From NCBI RefSeq assembly GCF_029392015.1, contig NZ_CP113925.1:62001-126000 (forward strand): 64,000 nt of DNA, read 5' to 3'. The notes under the pieces are model-generated. The model was not told the DNA's origin. It was given only the letters and a program-made list of their open reading frames with translations, and did no database searches. How positions within the stretch are numbered: position 1 is the stretch's first letter; the number at the start of each line of letters is the position of its first letter. Of the stretch, positions 14,844 to 58,686 are shown piece after piece. Position numbers and translations under genes: made by a program. Source of the DNA: Bifidobacterium sp. ESL0728 (GTDB lineage Bacteria; Actinomycetota; Actinomycetes; Actinomycetales; Bifidobacteriaceae).

Positions 14844-15260
14844 TCAATCTAGTGGTAACAGTGCGGTTAAATCGTCGCGCTCGCCCACCGCAGTGACCCG
14901 GCCGGCGTCCTTCTCTTCGGCCCATGAGGTCAGGCCGCACGCCAAGCGCAACCATACGTCAGGGTCGAGTTCGATGACGTCGGGTGGGGTGAGATTATGC
15001 GGGTCCGAAGCCGGCCCGTCTAGGATTTTCACCGCTCCCCAAGGTGCCACGCGGACTTCGACGCCGGGGCCGGGAGCCTTGTTTTCCAAAAGATAGAGCG
15101 AATACCGCACGGCCATCGCCCAAGTGTTGCGCGGCAGGCCGTCTGGTGAAAACGTGAGTCTCGCCTCAAGCGGTTCTCCGCGATGCGTGTCCGCCGCTTT
15201 GCGCCACTGGTCCAGCGCCGCCATGCCCTTCGAAATATCCTGTTCCCGTATCGCTGCCAT
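14844..15260 (-). CDS. Bacterial sterol-carrier-like protein (SCP_3 type)
   Basis: A small cytosolic protein of 138 residues that looks like the bacterial SCP-ortholog family found in actinobacteria. Recognisable parts are RNTWAMAVRYSLYLLENKAPG and VIELDPDVWLRLACGLTSW, the latter close to the SCP end motif. Ligand and role are unknown. I start at ATG 15260 (MAAIREQ). The open frame runs a further 74 codons upstream, but that part is the translation of an intergenic repeat ladder and is unlikely to be protein. Confidence 0.7.
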   Translation of the reverse strand: MAAIREQDISKGMAALDQWRKAADTHRGEPLEARLTFSPDGLPRNTWAMAVRYSLYLLENKAPGPGVEVRVAPWGAVKILDGPASDPHNLTPPDVIELDPDVWLRLACGLTSWAEEKDAGRVTAVGERDDLTALLPLD

Positions 15261-15282
15261 AGCGTCATCGTCCCTCGCGTTA

Positions 15283-15475
15283 TGGACGGAAGGAAATGAA
15301 AGGCAATGGCAATACTCGGTCGGTCGCTTTTCTCTTGTCCTGCACCTTGTGGACGGAAGAAGATGAAAGGCAATACCTGGTCGGTCGTTTTTCCCGTCCC
15401 CCACCTTGTGGACGGAACGGCGTGAATGGCAATAGCCAGTCAGTTGTTTCCCATGTCTCTTTTTGTGGACGGAGG
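15283..15475. repeat. Four-copy TGGACGGA ladder, about 60 bp apart
   Basis: The word TGGACGGA starts at 15283, 15350 and 15409, and TGGACGGAG at 15466. Between copies the words GAAAGGCAAT, GGTCGGTCG and CCCACCTTGTG recur. Spacing is 67, 59 and 57 bp, and the first interval holds a small extra GGCAAT. The ladder fills the gap between the small membrane-protein gene and the SCP-like gene and creates spurious open frames on the minus strand. Confidence 0.7.
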
Positions 15476-15483
15476 TAGGCATA

Positions 15484-16860: not shown

Positions 16861-16911
16861 ACGCGTACGCCCGGCCTAGCCGGTAGCTGTAGGCGTCAGT
16901 TAGGCGTTTTC

Positions 16912-17235
16912 CTGACGTTGGTGTTGAAAAGTGCACTTTAGCGTGGGTGTGGTGCGCTTTTTGGCGGTGCCGTCAAAAACGTGCGTTTTGGCTGGGGTGT
17001 GGTGCGCTTTTTTGACGGTGGTGTGCAAAAGGTGCGTTTTAGTGTGGATAGGGTGCATTTTTCTGACGGTGCCGTCAAAAACGTGCGTTTGGGCGAAGGT
17101 AAAGTGCACTTTTCCGACAGTGGTGTTGAAAAGGTGCGTTTTGGCTGGGGTAAAGTGCACCTTTTTGACGTAATACACGAAAGGTGCAACCTGAACATGG
17201 CCAGATTGCACCTTGCTGACGCGGGATGGTTGTCG
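16912..17235. repeat. 51-bp palindromic array, seven units (longest copy)
   Basis: The core GACGGTGCCGTC or a variant starts at 16914, 16963, 17014, 17065, 17116, 17167 and 17218; after the first interval (49) the spacing is exactly 51. Each unit reads GTGCACTTTTTT, then the core, then AAAAACGTGC and a G/T-rich linker such as GTTTTGGCTGGGGT. The left and right arms are complementary, so each unit can fold as a hairpin. The array lies between convergent stop codons. The same unit occurs at three other places in the window. As 51 is a multiple of three, it stays open in several frames and yields false genes. Confidence 0.85.
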
Positions 17236-33146: not shown

Positions 33147-36100
33147 TCAGGAACGGTTCCTGTACCTATTGCGGTTGAGGAAGACGGAGGTGGCGCACGC
33201 CCCGATGATGCCGAAGATGATGAGCACAATCGGGAAGTTCTGCCCATGCCCGCCTGTAAACGGAACGCTGGAGACTGTGTCGGGAGTCGCCGGGTCTTTG
33301 ATAGTGATGCTTACGGCTGTGCTGACATTGCCGTCCAGATCCTTGGCAGTAATGGACGCGCTTCCCGTGCCGTGCGTGGAGCTTGCCGATTTCCTGAATG
33401 ACCATGTGCCGTCTGCGTCGCTCGTCACTTTGCTGGTCATGCCATTGGGCCAAGTGATGGTGATGATGTCGTATGCTTCGGCAGGGCCGCCCTCATGTTC
33501 GTAAACAGTTCCAGAAATAGCCTCATCAGTACGGAATGTATTTTTACTCATTGCAATAAATGGTGGGACGCCATCATTTGACCAGCGTGCATAGAGAACA
33601 GTCGTGCCATCCGCGGGATACATCCTGTCCCCCATGTGATATGTAATACCGTTGCCGTCCCTTCTGGTATTCCACGAAAGGAATGTGCAACCGGGTTTTG
33701 CAACGAGTGCATTGCCGGTGGGAATGATTATGCTATTGCCTATTCCGGTTCCCGTAGTCCCGGTTATATTTGGAATGGTTCCGCTGCCTCCATTGGCATC
33801 AAATAGCACAGTGAATGGCATGCTTAACGTCGTGACATATGTACCTGCCGCGCCTCCTGGGTTTTGCGAAGCCGCGATAAGATTAGGAGAAGTATAAGAG
33901 GGGGCTGTTGCTTGGTTGCCGTTTCCAGAAAGCCTGTACCATGTCGCGTTGTACAAAGAAACATTATTGTTTGTTGCATTACTTAATTTTGTTTTTGCTC
34001 CGATGCTAATGCGTTTCAAGTTGTTCGTCGTGTAGAACATTTGATCCATGTTGGTGACGTTGCCGGTGTCCCAGCCAGATAAGTCAAGCGTTTTAAGGTT
34101 GCTTACATAGCTGAACATATTTTGCATGTTTTGAACGTTGCTGGTGTCCCAGCTTGATAAATCAAGAGTGGAGAGGTTTGGTGAGCTGTAAAACATGTCA
34201 TTCATAGCGATGACGCTGCTGGTGTCGAATCCAGATAGGTCAAGGACGGAGAGCGTCTGCAAGTTTTTGAACATACAGCTCATGTCGGTGACTTTGCTGG
34301 TGTCCCAGCCTGTGAGATTGAGCTTAGTCAGCATTCTCATGTTGTAGAACATGCTGTTCATAGTGCTGACGCTGCCGGTGTCCCACTCGGACAGATCGAG
34401 CGTAGCAAGAGGTATGCCGGCAAACATATAGCTCATGTCGGTGACTTTGCTGGTGTCCCAGCCTGTGAGATCGAGGGTAGTCAGTGTTCTCATGTTGTAG
34501 AACATACTGCTCATGTCGGTGACTTTGCTGGTATCGAACTTGGAGAGGTCGAGGCTGGTGAGGCTGCTGCACATGGAGAACATGTTGCTCATGTTGGTGA
34601 CGTTGCTGGTGTCGAACTTGGAGAGGTTGAGGCTGGTGAGACTGGTGCAGCTGGAGAACATGCTGCTCATGTTGGTGACGTTGGTGGTGTTGAGGTTGCT
34701 GAGGTTGAGGCTGGTGAGTCTGTTGCAGTTGTAGAACATGCTGCTCATGTTGGTGACGTTGGTGGTGTTGAGGTTGCTGAGGTCGAGATTGGTGAGGCTG
34801 CGGCAGAAGTAGAACATGTAAGCTGCGGCTTGGTCTTGCAGAGAAAGAGTTGCGCTGGGGGCGAGCGAGAACTGTCCCAGATTGCTCATTGAGGCGAAAA
34901 GGCCGGTGTAGTAGTCGTTAGGGGCTGAACCCTGAGGTTTTGCTTCTTTTGTTGCTTTGACGGTTAGGTTGCCTTCGATGATGACTTTGGCGATTTCGCT
35001 TCGGTAGGTGTCGTTGGTTACCCAGGGGATGTCGGTGATGTCGGTGTTGGTTACCTCGTCATGTCGCCTGATGTCGGGCGAGGTGCCACCGGAGATGTGG
35101 AGGGTGCAGCCGGCGTCGATCGACCAGCGGACGTCGCTGTCGCCCCACGGCGTGCTTCCGACGGGCGTGCAGCTGTGCACCCATTTCACGTAGAGTGTGG
35201 TATAGCCTGCGGCCGGGTAGAAGGTGCTGCCGGCCTGGTAGTCGGATCCGTTGCCGTCGGGTTGGGTGTTCCATGACGTTGCCGCGTAGCCGTTTCTGCT
35301 GATTCCGGTGAATTGGGGGAGGGTGACCGTGCTTCCCGTGGTGCCGGACAGGACTTGAGGCGTGGTACCGCTTCCCCCGTTGAGGTTGAATCTAAGCGTG
35401 TAGGATGCAGAACTCAGCCCGCCGTTGACCACGTAGGTGCCTTGTGCATGCCCTTGCTGTGTCTCCGTGTAAAGCTGATCGGTTGTGATGCCGGTTTTTG
35501 CCGGGTTCGGGCTCCCATACATGCGTGTCCAATTAGCGTCGCGAAGACGAGTATCAGAGTCTATTTTCGTTTTCAACCCCAGAACAAGGGTGGCGAGTCT
35601 GTCGCAGCCTCTGAACATGTTGCTCATGTTGGTGGTGTTGGTGGTGTTGAAGTTGGTGAGGTTGAGGTTGGTGAGTCCGGTGCAGCCGTAGAACATGCTG
35701 TTCATGTTGGTGACGTTGCTGGTGTTGAAGTTGCTGAGGTTGAGGCTGGTGAGGTTGCTGCAGAAGCTGAACATGCGGCTCATGTCGGTGGTGTTGGTGG
35801 TGTTGAAGTTGGTGAGGTTGAGGCTGGTGAGGTTGCTGCAGCCGTTGAACATGCCGTGCATGTCGGCGACCTTGGTGGTGTTGAAGTTGGTGAGGTTGAG
35901 GCTGGTGAGGTTGCTGCAGTTTTCGAACATGCCGCTCATGTCGGTGACGTTGCTGGTATCGAAGTTGCTGAGGTTGAGGCTGCTGAGGGCGTAGTTGCCG
36001 AACATGTCGCTCATGTTGGTGACGTTGCTGGTGTCGAAGTTGCTGAGGTTGAGGCTGCTGAGGGAAAGGCAGACGGCGAACATGCCGCTCATGTCGGTGA

Positions 36101-37142
36101 CGTTGCTGGTGTCGAAGTTGCTGAGGTTGAGGCCGGTGAGACTGCTGCAGTAGTAGAACATGTAGCTCATGTTGGTGACTTTGCTGGTGTTGAAGTTGGT
36201 GAGGTTGAGGCCGGTGAGACTGCCGCATTTGGAGAACATGTAAGCTGCGGCTGAGTCTTTCAGGGTAAGGGCCGCACCTGTGGTAATCGAAAACTGGCTT
36301 AGTTTGTTCACTGAAAAAAGGCCCGTGCAGTAGTCGTTAGGGTACGTGCCCAGATATTGTGCTTCTTTTGTGGCAGTAACGGTCAGGTTGCCTTCGATGC
36401 TGACGGCGGTTATTTGGGTTCTGTACGAGACATAGGTTGAATTGGAGTCATCTTTGATCCATGGGATGTGTGTTGTACCATCCTCTGGCCGGATGTCCGG
36501 CGACGTGCCTCCGGAGATGTGGAGGGTGCAGCTGGCGTCGATTGACCACGTAACGTCGCTGTCTCCCCATCGCTGACTTGGAACGGGAGCACAGCTACTC
36601 TGTGGCCCCACAGTTGCTTGCTGTTTGGGGTTTTCTTCTGGGCTCGTTGTTACAGCGGTGTCGTTTTGTTTGTCTTGTGTTTGGCTGTCGCTAGCTGATT
36701 CGTCTGCATTCTTGCGTTGTGCAGATGACGCAGCATCTGCAGCTTCCCCATTTTGGTTCGGTTTAGTTTTCGATGGAACGGTGCCGCTTTCCAGATGATT
36801 TGACTCAGTGCTGCTTGGTTTGGATGCGATGGATGGAGATTGACTGGATGAGGTTGCGTTTGGTTTAGCTTCGCTTGGTGAGGTTTGGTCGGCTGCAGTT
36901 TGGCTTGGCGGATTCTGGCCAGGGGTTTTCGAAGGATCGTCCGCAGAAGTCTGAGCCGGATCCGCGGCGTCGGTGCTTTCTGCATTGGGCGTTGACGGTG
37001 CTGGGTTGGCTTTCTGTTGCTCGGAACTCGGCTGCGTCAAGGCGGCGGGCAGGGTGTTGGCCATAGCCGTCTGGGTCAGCGCGGGGCTGAAGGAAAGAGC
37101 GCAAACGAGGGCCGCCCCTATCGCCTTGAATGCATTGCGCAT
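33147..37142 (-). CDS. BspA-type leucine-rich repeat surface protein with sortase signal
   Basis: 1331 residues, secreted and cell-wall anchored. A signal peptide (AIGAALVCALSFSPALTQTAMA) is followed by a Ser/Pro/Thr/Gln-rich stretch to about 190. Then come DUF285 repeats of the form LTSLNLSNFDTSNVTNMSSMF, a Listeria-Bacteroides (InlB B) repeat, a second DUF285 block and a second InlB-type repeat. An Ig-like domain (about 1180-1280) and the sorting signal VPFTG, hydrophobic helix and basic tail NRNRYRNRS close the protein. VPFTG is a variant of LPXTG. Such proteins often bind host or bacterial surfaces. AAGGGAG precedes the ATG at 37142. The repeats are also near-identical at DNA level (34080-36240), so copy-number change is likely. 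Confidence 0.92.
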   Translation of the reverse strand: MRNAFKAIGAALVCALSFSPALTQTAMANTLPAALTQPSSEQQKANPAPSTPNAESTDAADPAQTSADDPSKTPGQNPPSQTAADQTSPSEAKPNATSSSQSPSIASKPSSTESNHLESGTVPSKTKPNQNGEAADAASSAQRKNADESASDSQTQDKQNDTAVTTSPEENPKQQATVGPQSSCAPVPSQRWGDSDVTWSIDASCTLHISGGTSPDIRPEDGTTHIPWIKDDSNSTYVSYRTQITAVSIEGNLTVTATKEAQYLGTYPNDYCTGLFSVNKLSQFSITTGAALTLKDSAAAYMFSKCGSLTGLNLTNFNTSKVTNMSYMFYYCSSLTGLNLSNFDTSNVTDMSGMFAVCLSLSSLNLSNFDTSNVTNMSDMFGNYALSSLNLSNFDTSNVTDMSGMFENCSNLTSLNLTNFNTTKVADMHGMFNGCSNLTSLNLTNFNTTNTTDMSRMFSFCSNLTSLNLSNFNTSNVTNMNSMFYGCTGLTNLNLTNFNTTNTTNMSNMFRGCDRLATLVLGLKTKIDSDTRLRDANWTRMYGSPNPAKTGITTDQLYTETQQGHAQGTYVVNGGLSSASYTLRFNLNGGSGTTPQVLSGTTGSTVTLPQFTGISRNGYAATSWNTQPDGNGSDYQAGSTFYPAAGYTTLYVKWVHSCTPVGSTPWGDSDVRWSIDAGCTLHISGGTSPDIRRHDEVTNTDITDIPWVTNDTYRSEIAKVIIEGNLTVKATKEAKPQGSAPNDYYTGLFASMSNLGQFSLAPSATLSLQDQAAAYMFYFCRSLTNLDLSNLNTTNVTNMSSMFYNCNRLTSLNLSNLNTTNVTNMSSMFSSCTSLTSLNLSKFDTSNVTNMSNMFSMCSSLTSLDLSKFDTSKVTDMSSMFYNMRTLTTLDLTGWDTSKVTDMSYMFAGIPLATLDLSEWDTGSVSTMNSMFYNMRMLTKLNLTGWDTSKVTDMSCMFKNLQTLSVLDLSGFDTSSVIAMNDMFYSSPNLSTLDLSSWDTSNVQNMQNMFSYVSNLKTLDLSGWDTGNVTNMDQMFYTTNNLKRISIGAKTKLSNATNNNVSLYNATWYRLSGNGNQATAPSYTSPNLIAASQNPGGAAGTYVTTLSMPFTVLFDANGGSGTIPNITGTTGTGIGNSIIIPTGNALVAKPGCTFLSWNTRRDGNGITYHMGDRMYPADGTTVLYARWSNDGVPPFIAMSKNTFRTDEAISGTVYEHEGGPAEAYDIITITWPNGMTSKVTSDADGTWSFRKSASSTHGTGSASITAKDLDGNVSTAVSITIKDPATPDTVSSVPFTGGHGQNFPIVLIIFGIIGACATSVFLNRNRYRNRS

Positions 37143-37202
37143 CGTTTTGCTCCCTTCTTCCTTCTTTGGTCTCGTGCCCGTTTCATGCGTCATCGCGAGC
37201 AC

Positions 37203-38984: not shown

Positions 38985-39170
38985 GTACGCGAATGCGCGA
39001 AAACGTACGCGAATGTACGCGAGATTGTACGAGATACTCCGAAATAGTACGAGTTACCGCGAGTTACCGCGAAATAGTACGAGATAGTACGAGATTGTGT
39101 ACGCGAATGTACGCGAATACGCGAAAACGTACGCGAATGTACGCGAAAATGTACGCGAAAATGTGGGCGA
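38985..39170. repeat. Degenerate TACGCGAATG / TACGAGATAG ladder
   Basis: Directly after pcnA the words GTACGCGAATGTACGCGA, GTACGAGATAGTACGAGA and GTTACCGCGA alternate many times with loose 10-12 bp spacing. It merges into the regular 10-bp array that follows and looks like its degenerate edge. Confidence 0.8.
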
Positions 39171-39350
39171 GATAACGCGAGTTACCGCGAGTTACCGCGA
39201 GTTACCGCGAGTTACCGCGAGTTACCGCGAGATAACGCGAGATAACGCGAGATAACGCGAGATAACGCGAGATAACGCGAGATAACGCGAGATAACGCGA
39301 GATAACGCGAGATAACGCGAGATAACGCGAGATAACGCGAGATAACGCGA
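39171..39350. repeat. Perfect 10-bp tandem array, 18 units
   Basis: One GATAACGCGA, five GTTACCGCGA (39181-39230) and twelve GATAACGCGA (39231-39350) follow each other with no interruption, 180 bp in all. The unit equals about one helical turn. The perfect identity points to recent expansion, and the number of units is likely to vary between strains. The array ends at a hairpin between convergent pcnA and the AlbA_2 gene. Confidence 0.95.
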
Positions 39351-39391
39351 GGCCCGCCAAAATACTATGGCGGGCCTCGCGTTTTCGGTTT
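39349..39391 (+). terminator. Hairpin terminator between convergent genes
   Basis: GAGGCCCGCC (39349-39358) and GGCGGGCCTC (39369-39378) pair perfectly around AAAATACTAT and are followed on the plus strand by GCGTTTTCGGTTTGTTT. It can end transcripts from pcnA through the array, and may also act on the minus-strand gene that stops at 39398. Confidence 0.75.
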
Positions 39392-45380: not shown

Positions 45381-45394
45381 AGTGATGCTCCAAA

Positions 45395-45616
45395 GTGTCA
45401 GTTGTAACTTACACTTTAGCATAAAATTGTAAAAGTGTAAGTTATACCTGACACTTTCATAATAAAATGTAAGAGTGTCAGTTGTAACTGATATTTCGAG
45501 GTTTGTATGCTGGAAGTTTCAGTTACGCCTGAAAGTTGATGGTGAAAACGGCAAAAGCGTCAGGTATAACTTACGTTTTACGGGATAAATATGAGAGCGT
45601 CAGGTATAACTTACAC
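45395..45616. promoter_or_regulatory. Six palindromic operators at 40-41 bp spacing
   Basis: Twenty-base imperfect palindromes of the form GTGTCAGTTGTAACTTACAC start at 45395, 45435 (GTGTAAGTTATACCTGACAC), 45475, 45516, 45557 (GCGTCAGGTATAACTTACGT) and 45597 (GCGTCAGGTATAACTTACAC). Spacing is 40, 40, 41, 41 and 40. The better copies extend to AAAGTGT...ACACTTT. The first copy lies 15 bp before the ATPase start codon. Regular phasing near four helical turns suggests cooperative protein binding on one face of the DNA. Confidence 0.85.
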
Positions 45617-47240: not shown

Positions 47241-47410
47241 CCAAACCCCCTGAAGAAATTGCCGGATATGCCGCGCATATCCATAGTCCTATCCATTCTA
47301 CAGTCTATCGGTTTCACGCTGGGGGTTGCATGCCTATCCGGGTTATGAGGTCAAGGTTTTGCAAAGAAAGCATGGCTACAGACGGCGTACTCAATGGCGC
47401 TGTCCGAAAA

Positions 47411-47690
47411 GGTGCTTTTCTCCTCACGTGGGTTATGAAGCAGTGGGAAAAGCACTAAAACGGCCTCGAAATGGTGCTTTTTCCACGGGAAGCCTGTCAA
47501 TCAGTGGGAAAAGCACTAAAACGGCCGTGGAATGGTGCTTTTCTCCTCGGTTGGGTTGTGAATCAGTGGGAAAAGCACTAAAACGGCCTCGAAAAGGTGC
47601 TTTTCTCCTCGGTTGGGTTGTGGGGCAGTGGGAAAAGCACCAAATCGGCGTTGAAATGGTGCTTTTCCCACTGGAATCCCAAAGTGCTAG
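47411..47690. repeat. 62-bp palindromic array, five units
   Basis: GGTGCTTTT starts at 47411, 47473, 47534, 47596 and 47658 (62, 61, 62, 62). The complementary arm GTGGGAAAAGCAC follows about 32 bp later in each of the first four (47443, 47504, 47566, 47628). Linker words ACTAAAACGGCCTCGAAA and CTCCTCGGTTGGGTTGTG recur. Each unit can form a hairpin GTGCTTTT/AAAAGCAC. The array lies upstream of the Rpf-like gene, whose promoter must lie within or before it. Confidence 0.9.
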
Positions 47691-53886: not shown

Positions 53887-53956
53887 ACCCCTAATACTAC
53901 CGAGGTGGCTGCATCGTTACTGTTTGGATGCCAATGCTGTTTGTTTCTGAGTCATA

Positions 53957-54165
53957 GGGTGCATGTTTTCGGTACTGGTGTGAAAAACGTGCAAGTTGCT
54001 TCAGGTAAGGTGCATGTTTTTGACGGTGCTGTCAAGAATGTGCGGGTTGGCTCGTGTGGGGTGCATATTTTTCGCATTGGTGTCAGGAAAGTGCGCTTTG
54101 CCTCGCGCAAGGTGCACTTTTTACACAGCACCGTTGCAAAAGTGCACCCTGAAAAGGGTAGGCGC
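53957..54165. repeat. 51-bp palindromic array, four units
   Basis: GTGCA words start at 53958, 54009, 54060 and 54111, all 51 bp apart. Units carry GTGCATGTTTTTGACGGTGC, then TGTCAAGAATGTGC and a G/T-rich linker, the same unit as at 16912-17235 and in the same orientation. It lies upstream of the kinase gene and downstream of the second DUF4143 gene. Confidence 0.85.
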
Positions 54166-56863: not shown

Positions 56864-57115
56864 TTTGCGCGTTTGGGGCGTTGGCGTCAGAAGGGGTGAC
56901 TGTGCTGGTGCAGGGTGCATGTTTCTGACGGTGCCGTCAAAAACGTGCGGGTTGGTTGATGTAGGGTGCGGTTTTTCTGCATCAGTGTGTGAAAGGTGCA
57001 ACTTGGAGTGCGCAAGGTGCATGTTTAGGACAGTAGCGTCAGAAAAGTGCAACTTGGGGTGTGCGAGGTGCGTGTTTGGGGCGTTGGCGTCAGAAAAGTG
57101 CACGTTTTGATGCAA
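56864..57115. repeat. 51-bp palindromic array, four to five units
   Basis: GTGC words start at 56915, 56966, 57017 and 57068, exactly 51 bp apart, with a weaker unit from about 56864. The unit is GTGCATGTTTCTGACGGTGC, then CGTCAAAAACGTGC and a G/T-rich linker, as at 16912-17235. It lies directly downstream of the AbiEi/DUF559-like gene and upstream of the phosphatase gene. Confidence 0.85.
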
Positions 57116-57178: not shown

Positions 57179-58144
57179 TTATCGGGGGTTGTGGCTCATT
57201 GGGACTCCGCTGTTGATGAGTTTTTGAATGAGCGATCTTGGCTGCATGACCTCTTCGTAATCCGTCCGCAAAATGCTGGTCACGCCTGCGCGCCGTAGCG
57301 CTTCCTCGCGCTTTCGTTCCTTGTAAACCACCTGTCGGGTGTCATGTCCATTTGTCATATGTTGGTCTGTGTATTTTTGCATGCCGTCATATTCCAGAAC
57401 CACGACTTTGCGGTTACAGACCCATAAAAAATCAGTGCGGAAAGTGTGTCTCAGATTAGCAGGATCTCGGAATTCGTGTTGCAGCTCAGGTCGCGCAAAC
57501 CCTGCTTCAAGAATTACCGAACGGCACAATGATTCACCTCCGTTCTCGCTTTTCCCGTCAACGTCATGTAGAAGTTTCTGCACTGGAGAACAGTCTCTGT
57601 GCAAGCTGGAACAGGTTTCGGCTATTTTTTGCTTATTTACTATTCCGGCGCGCAATGCGGAATCGAAGACTCCCAAGGATTGGTTATAGGAGTACCGCAA
57701 AGCGCAATCCACCAGTGTCCGTTCAGGAGGGGTGACGCGGATTCCGTCATGGACGACGAACGTTAACGGATGTACGTATATTTTCTCGATGACTCCTTGC
57801 ATGTGCTTTGGTATCGATTCTTCCGTTGCGATTTGCGCGTGTTCCAACGCAGCGTTGTACCAAGGGCATTCGAGCCCAAGCACCAGTGCGGCGCTCATTG
57901 CGCCAAATACTTTTTGAGGAAATTTAGTAGCCAGCGTGCGTATCAGGTGCATGGCGCGTTCCTGTGGGTTGAGCGTTTGGTAATACTCGTTTTTCGTGTA
58001 GATGTTCGGATGTAGGCGAACATACTCGTGGGCAAGCCAGCGTTTGCGCATTGCCCTCTTCTGATTTGGGGTCGCGCCGAAGAAGTAGCGGTGCCGTTGT
58101 TGGGCATCGTCGGATATTCGCTCGATTTCCGGATTGCGTTTCAT
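57179..58144 (-). CDS. AbiEi-like protein with DUF559/Vsr-type nuclease-like C-terminus
   Basis: 321 residues. The N-terminal 120 residues look like the AbiEi winged-helix antitoxin family (RWLAHEYVRLHPNIYTKNEY and FGAMSAALVLGLECPW). The middle has VVHDGIRVTPPERTLVDCAL, also typical. The C-terminal 90 residues (FRTDFLWVCNRKVVVLEYDG ... REEALRRAGVTSILRTDYEE) resemble the DUF559 / very-short-patch-repair nuclease fold with a D-(x)n-ExD pattern. Nothing resembling the AbiEii nucleotidyltransferase partner is adjacent. Arrays of the same 51-bp unit flank the gene on both sides. Confidence 0.65.
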   Translation of the reverse strand: MKRNPEIERISDDAQQRHRYFFGATPNQKRAMRKRWLAHEYVRLHPNIYTKNEYYQTLNPQERAMHLIRTLATKFPQKVFGAMSAALVLGLECPWYNAALEHAQIATEESIPKHMQGVIEKIYVHPLTFVVHDGIRVTPPERTLVDCALRYSYNQSLGVFDSALRAGIVNKQKIAETCSSLHRDCSPVQKLLHDVDGKSENGGESLCRSVILEAGFARPELQHEFRDPANLRHTFRTDFLWVCNRKVVVLEYDGMQKYTDQHMTNGHDTRQVVYKERKREEALRRAGVTSILRTDYEEVMQPRSLIQKLINSGVPMSHNPR

Positions 58145-58686
58145 GGAATCGACGCTAGACTAACGAGGCCTGGCGAGGCAAGCTGCGCGGGCGACTGTGG
58201 TCGAATGATTAGGGTTATGCACAAATCCGGGCGTGTCGCGGCTGACTTATCCACAGGTTTGGATATGAGAATGATGACTTATCCACAGCCTCATGGGCCC
58301 ATACTGCCGTCAGAAAAGTGCAACTTAGCGCATGCAAAGTGCATGTTTTTTATATCACCGTCAGAAAAGTGCATTTAGCAAGCTGTAAAGTGCGCTTTTT
58401 CAGCATTGCCGTCTAGAAAGTGCATTTTGGATATTGTAAAGTGCACTTTTTTAACATGAGCGATGACAGGTTCGTGGGTTTATCGCAAAATATGCGCGAA
58501 AAATGACAGGCTAAGTGCAACGGTGGAAAGTGCCGGAATCTGTAGGCACAATGAAAATGACATGAATAGACATGATTAGTGCGCGATTCGCTGATGGGCA
58601 ACACCGCCCGCAAATTGCGTATATGGTTTTAGCAGAGCTGTTGAAGCCGAGATTCATGTGTGAGCAAATAAAGGAGAAGACTCATC
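58145..58686. repeat. Divergent intergenic region with a 51-bp array (58317-58455)
   Basis: GTGC words start at 58339, 58390 and 58441, 51 bp apart, preceded by a half unit (GCCGTCAGAAAAGTGCAAC from 58306). Arms GTGCATGTTTTTT and CCGTCAGAAAAGTGC pair as in the other arrays. Before it, GACTTATCCACAG occurs at about 58230-58289 twice; TTATCCACA is the DnaA-box consensus, found here at about 58247 and 58279. The remaining sequence to 58686 should hold the GH3 gene promoter. GGAGAAG precedes that gene's start. Confidence 0.8.

Follow-up and report, generated by a model that had tools for sequence, protein, structure and literature searches.

Intergenic strips of a 51-bp palindrome lattice in Bifidobacterium: putative protein-binding sites with a possible role in chromosome organisation

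Four intergenic arrays in a 64,000-nucleotide stretch of the chromosome of Bifidobacterium sp. ESL0728 (the window) consist of a 51-bp repeat that is itself made of two alternating steps, 30 and 21 bp, of RTGCAY dyads flanked by A/T tracts. We read these arrays as strips of putative sites for a sequence-specific dimeric protein that would act in chromosome organisation, marking the origin domain or serving in a manner resembling nucleoid occlusion, and we give this reading close to an even chance of being right. A sequence-only reading of the window had described four arrays of a 51-bp palindromic unit, and all four lie where it had placed them. The arrays and the unit used as a model are as follows.

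Array 1, 16908-17224, no strand assigned: 11 RTGCAY dyads in a 21/30-bp lattice with 1-bp deletions, in a convergent gap flanked by genes for a rhomboid protein and a D-Ala-D-Ala ligase; orthologous arrays in genomes G004, G055 and G058, deleted in G048
Array 2, 53955-54165, no strand assigned: 8 dyads alternating perfectly at 30/21, flanked by genes for a Ser/Thr kinase and an AAA_14/DUF4143 protein
Array 3, 56864-57115, no strand assigned: 8 dyads that alternate perfectly from 56915 onwards, preceded by degenerate half-units, between a histidine-phosphatase gene and an uncharacterised gene (57179-58144)
Array 4, 58311-58455, no strand assigned: 6 dyads in 21/30 alternation, in a divergent gap ahead of a GH3 glycosidase gene; the matching gap carries arrays in G048, G055 and G058
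Model unit, 17053-17107, + strand: RTGCAY, TTTTyTGACG-N4-CGTCArAAA and RTGCAY (30-bp step), then TTTR-N7-YAAA and the next RTGCAY (21-bp step)

Anatomy of the lattice

The array consensus reads AAARTGCAYTTTTyTGACG-N4-CGTCArAAARTGCAYTTTR-N7-YAAA, with a second dyad, TGACG-N4-CGTCA, centred within each 30-bp step. A strict unit pattern, which fixes seven A/T letters and requires three GTGC at 30/21 spacing, had nine exact matches in the window, all on the + strand and all within the four arrays, against 0.00 expected from shuffles. Strictly alternating 21/30 chains of GTGC/GCAC sites reached a length of 8 sites, compared with at most 3 in 100 Markov controls. Among 86 sequences from nine genomes, the pairwise distances between GTGC/GCAC sites peaked at 21, 30, 51, 72, 81 and 102 bp (306, 295, 427, 203, 200 and 246 counts, respectively; median 60), with no peak at 22, 31 or 52 bp. 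Chains with 30/21 alternation held 4 to 17 dyads each, a few of the short ones listed being chance occurrences. Chain detection demanded GC in the dyad core, so conservation of the core is inflated, while the A/T tracts and the TGACG dyad are unaffected.

The spacing had been described as exactly 51 bp throughout. The 1-bp deletions in array 1 and shoulders at 29, 50 and 71 bp in the distance spectrum are exceptions to this, and they show that the lattice spacing tolerates one-base deletions, not insertions. The further observation that copies drift in sequence at fixed spacing, from which selection on geometry had been suggested, is supported. We also agree that the arrays are not CRISPRs: a CRISPR array requires identical repeats and unique spacers, whereas here the whole 51-bp unit is similar, the repeats drift and unique spacers are absent.

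Distribution, placement and orientation

A 55-column profile of the unit (R1) detected at least 17 arrays, with about 100 dyads in total, in the 2.59-Mb chromosome that contains the window (G000). For each genome the best 150 first-look candidates were scored, and weak arrays were missed; genome-wide statements rest on profile searches, the sequence analysed comprised the stretches around arrays, and genes were called with a simple custom gene caller. R1 matched 11 of 112 Bifidobacterium genomes (E <= 1e-4), and among 119 relatives in 31 genera its matches were confined to Bifidobacterium. The search of the whole genome and genus that had been proposed has thus been run, and it places the same family in ten further Bifidobacterium species. 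When 84,980 species were scanned with a 19-base pattern, one Bifidobacterium MAG (sp. B-bin1, JAGGHK010000003.1) was found together with eight isolated hits outside any array, and a viral scan with this pattern gave one isolated hit with no array around the match. An Rfam search of the window returned only a tRNA, with no match to the arrays at the gathering score, and no description of a 51-bp palindrome lattice was found in the literature searched. As the species are related, array-level counts are not independent, and group-level figures are used where possible.

The window spans 62-126 kb of its contig and dnaA lies at 2.590 Mb, which therefore places the origin at the contig ends. Over 34 locus groups, the mean relative distance of arrays from the origin was 0.25, compared with 0.5 expected (KS p = 8e-6); a single group lay beyond 0.75, and arrays are depleted towards the terminus. 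This bias could instead arise if origin-proximal gaps are more stable. The 62-bp repeat family described below, our single control, argues against this, as it is uniform along the same chromosomes (MWU p = 0.029, 1e-4 and 0.003).

The gaps that carry arrays are also a biased set. Convergent and divergent gaps stand at 25:9 with arrays and at 22:49 among array-free gaps (Fisher p = 5.5e-5). We considered whether the arrays could be operators of a local transcription factor controlling the flanking genes. Regulators do bind helically spaced, dyad-symmetric sites of this kind, and the gap of array 4 is divergent. We regard operators as highly improbable, however, because divergent gaps are avoided overall (9 of 86 gaps with arrays, compared with 49 of 208 array-free gaps), arrays lie closer to stop codons than to start codons (medians of 62 and 168 bp), and the flanking genes share no theme, encoding proteins as unrelated as a rhomboid protein, Ddl, a kinase, a GH3 enzyme, adenylosuccinate synthetase, glutamate dehydrogenase and a nitroreductase.

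In G000, eleven arrays are on the + strand (18 kb to 981 kb), five on the - strand (2.32-2.49 Mb) and one is ambiguous (1.93 Mb). The same layout is seen in G149, which is outside the model-building set, with + arrays at 14-757 kb and - arrays at 1.80-2.38 Mb (contig coordinates, origin not located). The common orientation noted earlier is real as a fact of sequence scores within the window, but as a property of the unit it is not supported: with dnaA located, it tracks the replication arm and is mainly mutation skew. When arrays were turned to the leading strand, the purine fractions of each conserved position and its mirror agreed within a few per cent at most positions, while within the purine and pyrimidine classes the leading strand favoured G over A and T over C relative to the mirror. 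A leave-group-out profile using all four letters assigned 76 of 82 arrays to the correct replication arm, a success equalled on the G/T versus A/C axis alone; on the skew-neutral purine/pyrimidine (R/Y) axis, the correct calls fell to 53 of 82 and the margin was tenfold smaller (0.38 versus 3.66 nats per step). Leading-strand skew is present outside the arrays as well, in intergenic DNA (GC skew 0.11, TA skew 0.06) and at four-fold sites (TA skew 0.26). Because R/Y recoding removes most of the arm signal and the skew extends beyond the arrays, we conclude that the lattice is nearly dyad-symmetric and that its orientation is chiefly an imprint of replication-skewed mutation. A weak intrinsic direction may exist, given that the R/Y calls slightly exceed half. 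A KOPS-like direction-encoding motif was considered in view of the near-perfect arm correlation and was rejected on the R/Y result. More generally, repeats that seem to share an orientation can be symmetric elements imprinted by strand-biased mutation during replication, and purine/pyrimidine recoding tells such an imprint from a genuine direction.

In a separate observation, dnaA is on the opposite contig strand in G029 and G004 relative to G055, G048 and G058, and the origin-proximal array groups are on the opposite arm. This suggests inversions around the origin or reversed contig orientation.

A second lattice and other repeats

A second palindrome lattice, unrelated to the 51-bp family, occupies 47405-47667 of the window, where GTGCTTTT half-sites alternate at 26 and 36 bp in a 62-bp unit. 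This 62-bp family has about 19 loci in G000, distributed along the entire chromosome with the terminus half included, and occurs in 12 of 112 Bifidobacterium genomes, ten of which also have the 51-bp family. Its 36-bp step pairs unlike half-sites, CnCACTG and CnCCTCA. Within the 26-bp step, A-runs can stand in for T-runs and vice versa (W 91-100%, R near 50%), which is a signature of DNA shape, not of pairing. One could extend our reading to at least two independent lattices, the origin-weighted TGCA dyads at 21/30 bp and the chromosome-wide GTGCTTTT half-sites at 26/36 bp, each with its own putative assembling DNA-binding protein and together forming a system of zonal addresses, of a sort not known in Actinobacteria, that would serve to organise the chromosome or to control division; we consider this broader proposal doubtful.

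Several other repeats were seen in the window. Adjoining array 4, at 58215-58287, three DnaA-box-like 9-mers (TTATGCACA, TTATCCACA and TTATCCACA) lie on the + strand at a spacing of exactly 32 bp, about 120 kb from the origin. Such 9-mers number only 13 across the 563 kb of DNA examined; near the matching gap there are two in G048, three in G058 and none in G055. The trio could be a datA/DARS-like DnaA-binding cluster. At 45392-45491, a tandem, near-perfect 26-bp palindrome, AAAGTGTCAGTTGTAACTGACACTTT, is spaced at about 40 bp over the start of a - strand AAA_14/DUF4143 ATPase gene and is operator-like. A run of 18.5 near-identical copies of GCGAGATAAC (39167-39351; 10-bp period, 97% matches) is likely a hypervariable tract, 78-bp tandem repeats at 34269-36218 within the long - strand ORF 33147-37202 fit a repeat-rich protein, and a 59-bp tandem repeat at 15305-15441 lies at the 5' end of the short - strand ORF 14844-15482.

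Conservation, pairing and possible function

About 20 orthologous gap groups carry arrays, each common to 2-6 species, and most of their flanking proteins are 70-99% identical. Across six species pairs, the A/T tracts beside the dyads of orthologous arrays were 0.76-0.85 identical, compared with 0.63-0.78 at four-fold sites of the flanking genes and 0.50-0.71 in the 21-step spacers. Identity of the TGACG dyad was 0.60-0.73, which in most pairs does not exceed that of four-fold sites, so the constraint on this dyad is weaker or older. The dyad cores were 79-86% identical, a figure partly fixed by site detection and unused as evidence. These comparisons bear on the earlier suggestion that the arrays arose by slippage from one ancestor. 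Amplification within arrays is supported by certain tandem units that match each other exactly (e.g., G055 117203-117403, judged by score), but slippage cannot explain everything, because the A/T tracts are conserved above four-fold sites and the spacers of the same arrays are not.

Whole arrays can be lost at shared loci. G048 has no array beside the D-Ala ligase gene, where its relatives carry one, and about 10 bp separate the two genes there; it also lacks the arrays next to the glutamate dehydrogenase gene and at the locus that lies at 858 kb in G058. No target-site duplications are evident at the empty sites, where the arrays are simply absent, although the right-hand flanks are too diverged for certainty.

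Mirrored positions of the palindromes were compared with partners shifted on purpose, and compensatory change was no commoner among the mirrored positions. In the 21-bp step, the two members of a mirrored pair vary independently of each other. Those of the 30-bp step do change together, yet to an equal degree when the partners are shifted, a pattern that indicates whole units decaying instead of pairing. The sole strong paired change, at position 10 of the 30-bp step (16 versus 3.9 expected), is an unexplained exception. We reject an RNA hairpin or a cruciform for lack of compensation above shifted controls. That lack also weighs against bidirectional transcription terminators or 3'-boundary elements, whose RNA hairpins would end or stabilise the flanking transcripts. 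Such elements would suit the preference for convergent and tandem gaps, the T runs adjoining the palindromes and the canonical terminator hairpin that one array adjoins. We nonetheless find them improbable: array regions show no excess of terminator-like sites, with a GC-rich hairpin followed by a T run, above chance (4 versus 7.2 expected and 2 versus 1.3 expected), an array-less locus still has its own terminator, and Rfam offers no match.

The best rival to our reading is a selfish repeat resembling BIMEs or minisatellites, which a transposase (e.g., RAYT) or recombination would have spread, slippage would have amplified and the host would tolerate at gene 3' ends; conservation would then reflect recognition by the amplifying enzyme and not a host function. 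The arrays have much in common with such repeats, being dispersed, intergenic and close to gene 3' ends, with variable numbers of regularly arranged palindromic units as in BIME-2, tandem units that are identical in places, and presence or absence at one locus differing between close species; a second palindromic family also inhabits the same genomes. Still, we think this rival unlikely, though it is the one most to be reckoned with. The consensus of 246 and 231 steps lacks a GTAG/GGAG-type REP head, and the 51-bp palindrome is not maintained by complementary mutations, whereas REP palindromes reportedly retain their pairing (PMC2817692). In addition, the family has two dyad types sharing half-sites at 21 and 30 bp, its positions are conserved across species in the shared gap groups instead of being scattered, its distribution is origin-biased, and its A/T tracts are conserved above four-fold sites. 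BIMEs, for their part, bind IHF and gyrase (PMC2817692).

We therefore return to strips of binding sites. Each strip would present a helically spaced lattice of AAARTGCAYTTT dyads, with 21 bp corresponding to about 2 turns and 30 bp to about 2.9 turns, and the TGACG-N4-CGTCA dyad inside each 30-bp step would allow several dimers to bind side by side. A role at the level of the chromosome fits arrays that avoid promoter gaps, have unrelated neighbouring genes and lie nearer the origin. Protein bound along the strips would provide a chromosome-level mark for which no single array is essential, and arrays could expand or shrink through unequal exchange or slippage or be lost whole. Plasmid centromere iterons are likewise helically spaced repeated sites on which dimers assemble side by side, at one locus beside a par operon, whereas the 51-bp family forms about 20 chromosomal strips with no linked par gene. 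The mycobacterial MIRU/VNTR loci are actinobacterial intergenic tandem repeats of about 50-100 bp, present at many loci in variable copy number; they are direct repeats lacking a dyad lattice, whereas conservation in the 51-bp family sits in recognition-like dyads.

Nucleoid-occlusion sites appear to be the nearest known example of such a role. There are about 70 Noc sites in Bacillus subtilis and 24-52 SlmA sites in Escherichia coli, and like the arrays they are palindromic, chromosomal, scattered, tens per genome and under-represented towards the terminus (PMC4726725). The analogy has limits, in that Noc and SlmA are known proteins with scattered sites, whereas the 51-bp family has a different sequence and forms rigid strips of 5-17 dyads in two alternating steps.

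If our reading is true, a whole class of chromosome-marking strips has gone unnoticed in Bifidobacterium, a genus of relevance to the gut and to health in which, to our knowledge, no nucleoid-occlusion factor is known. An array could then serve as ready-made bait for the putative binding protein, which would give a direct biochemical handle on the system.
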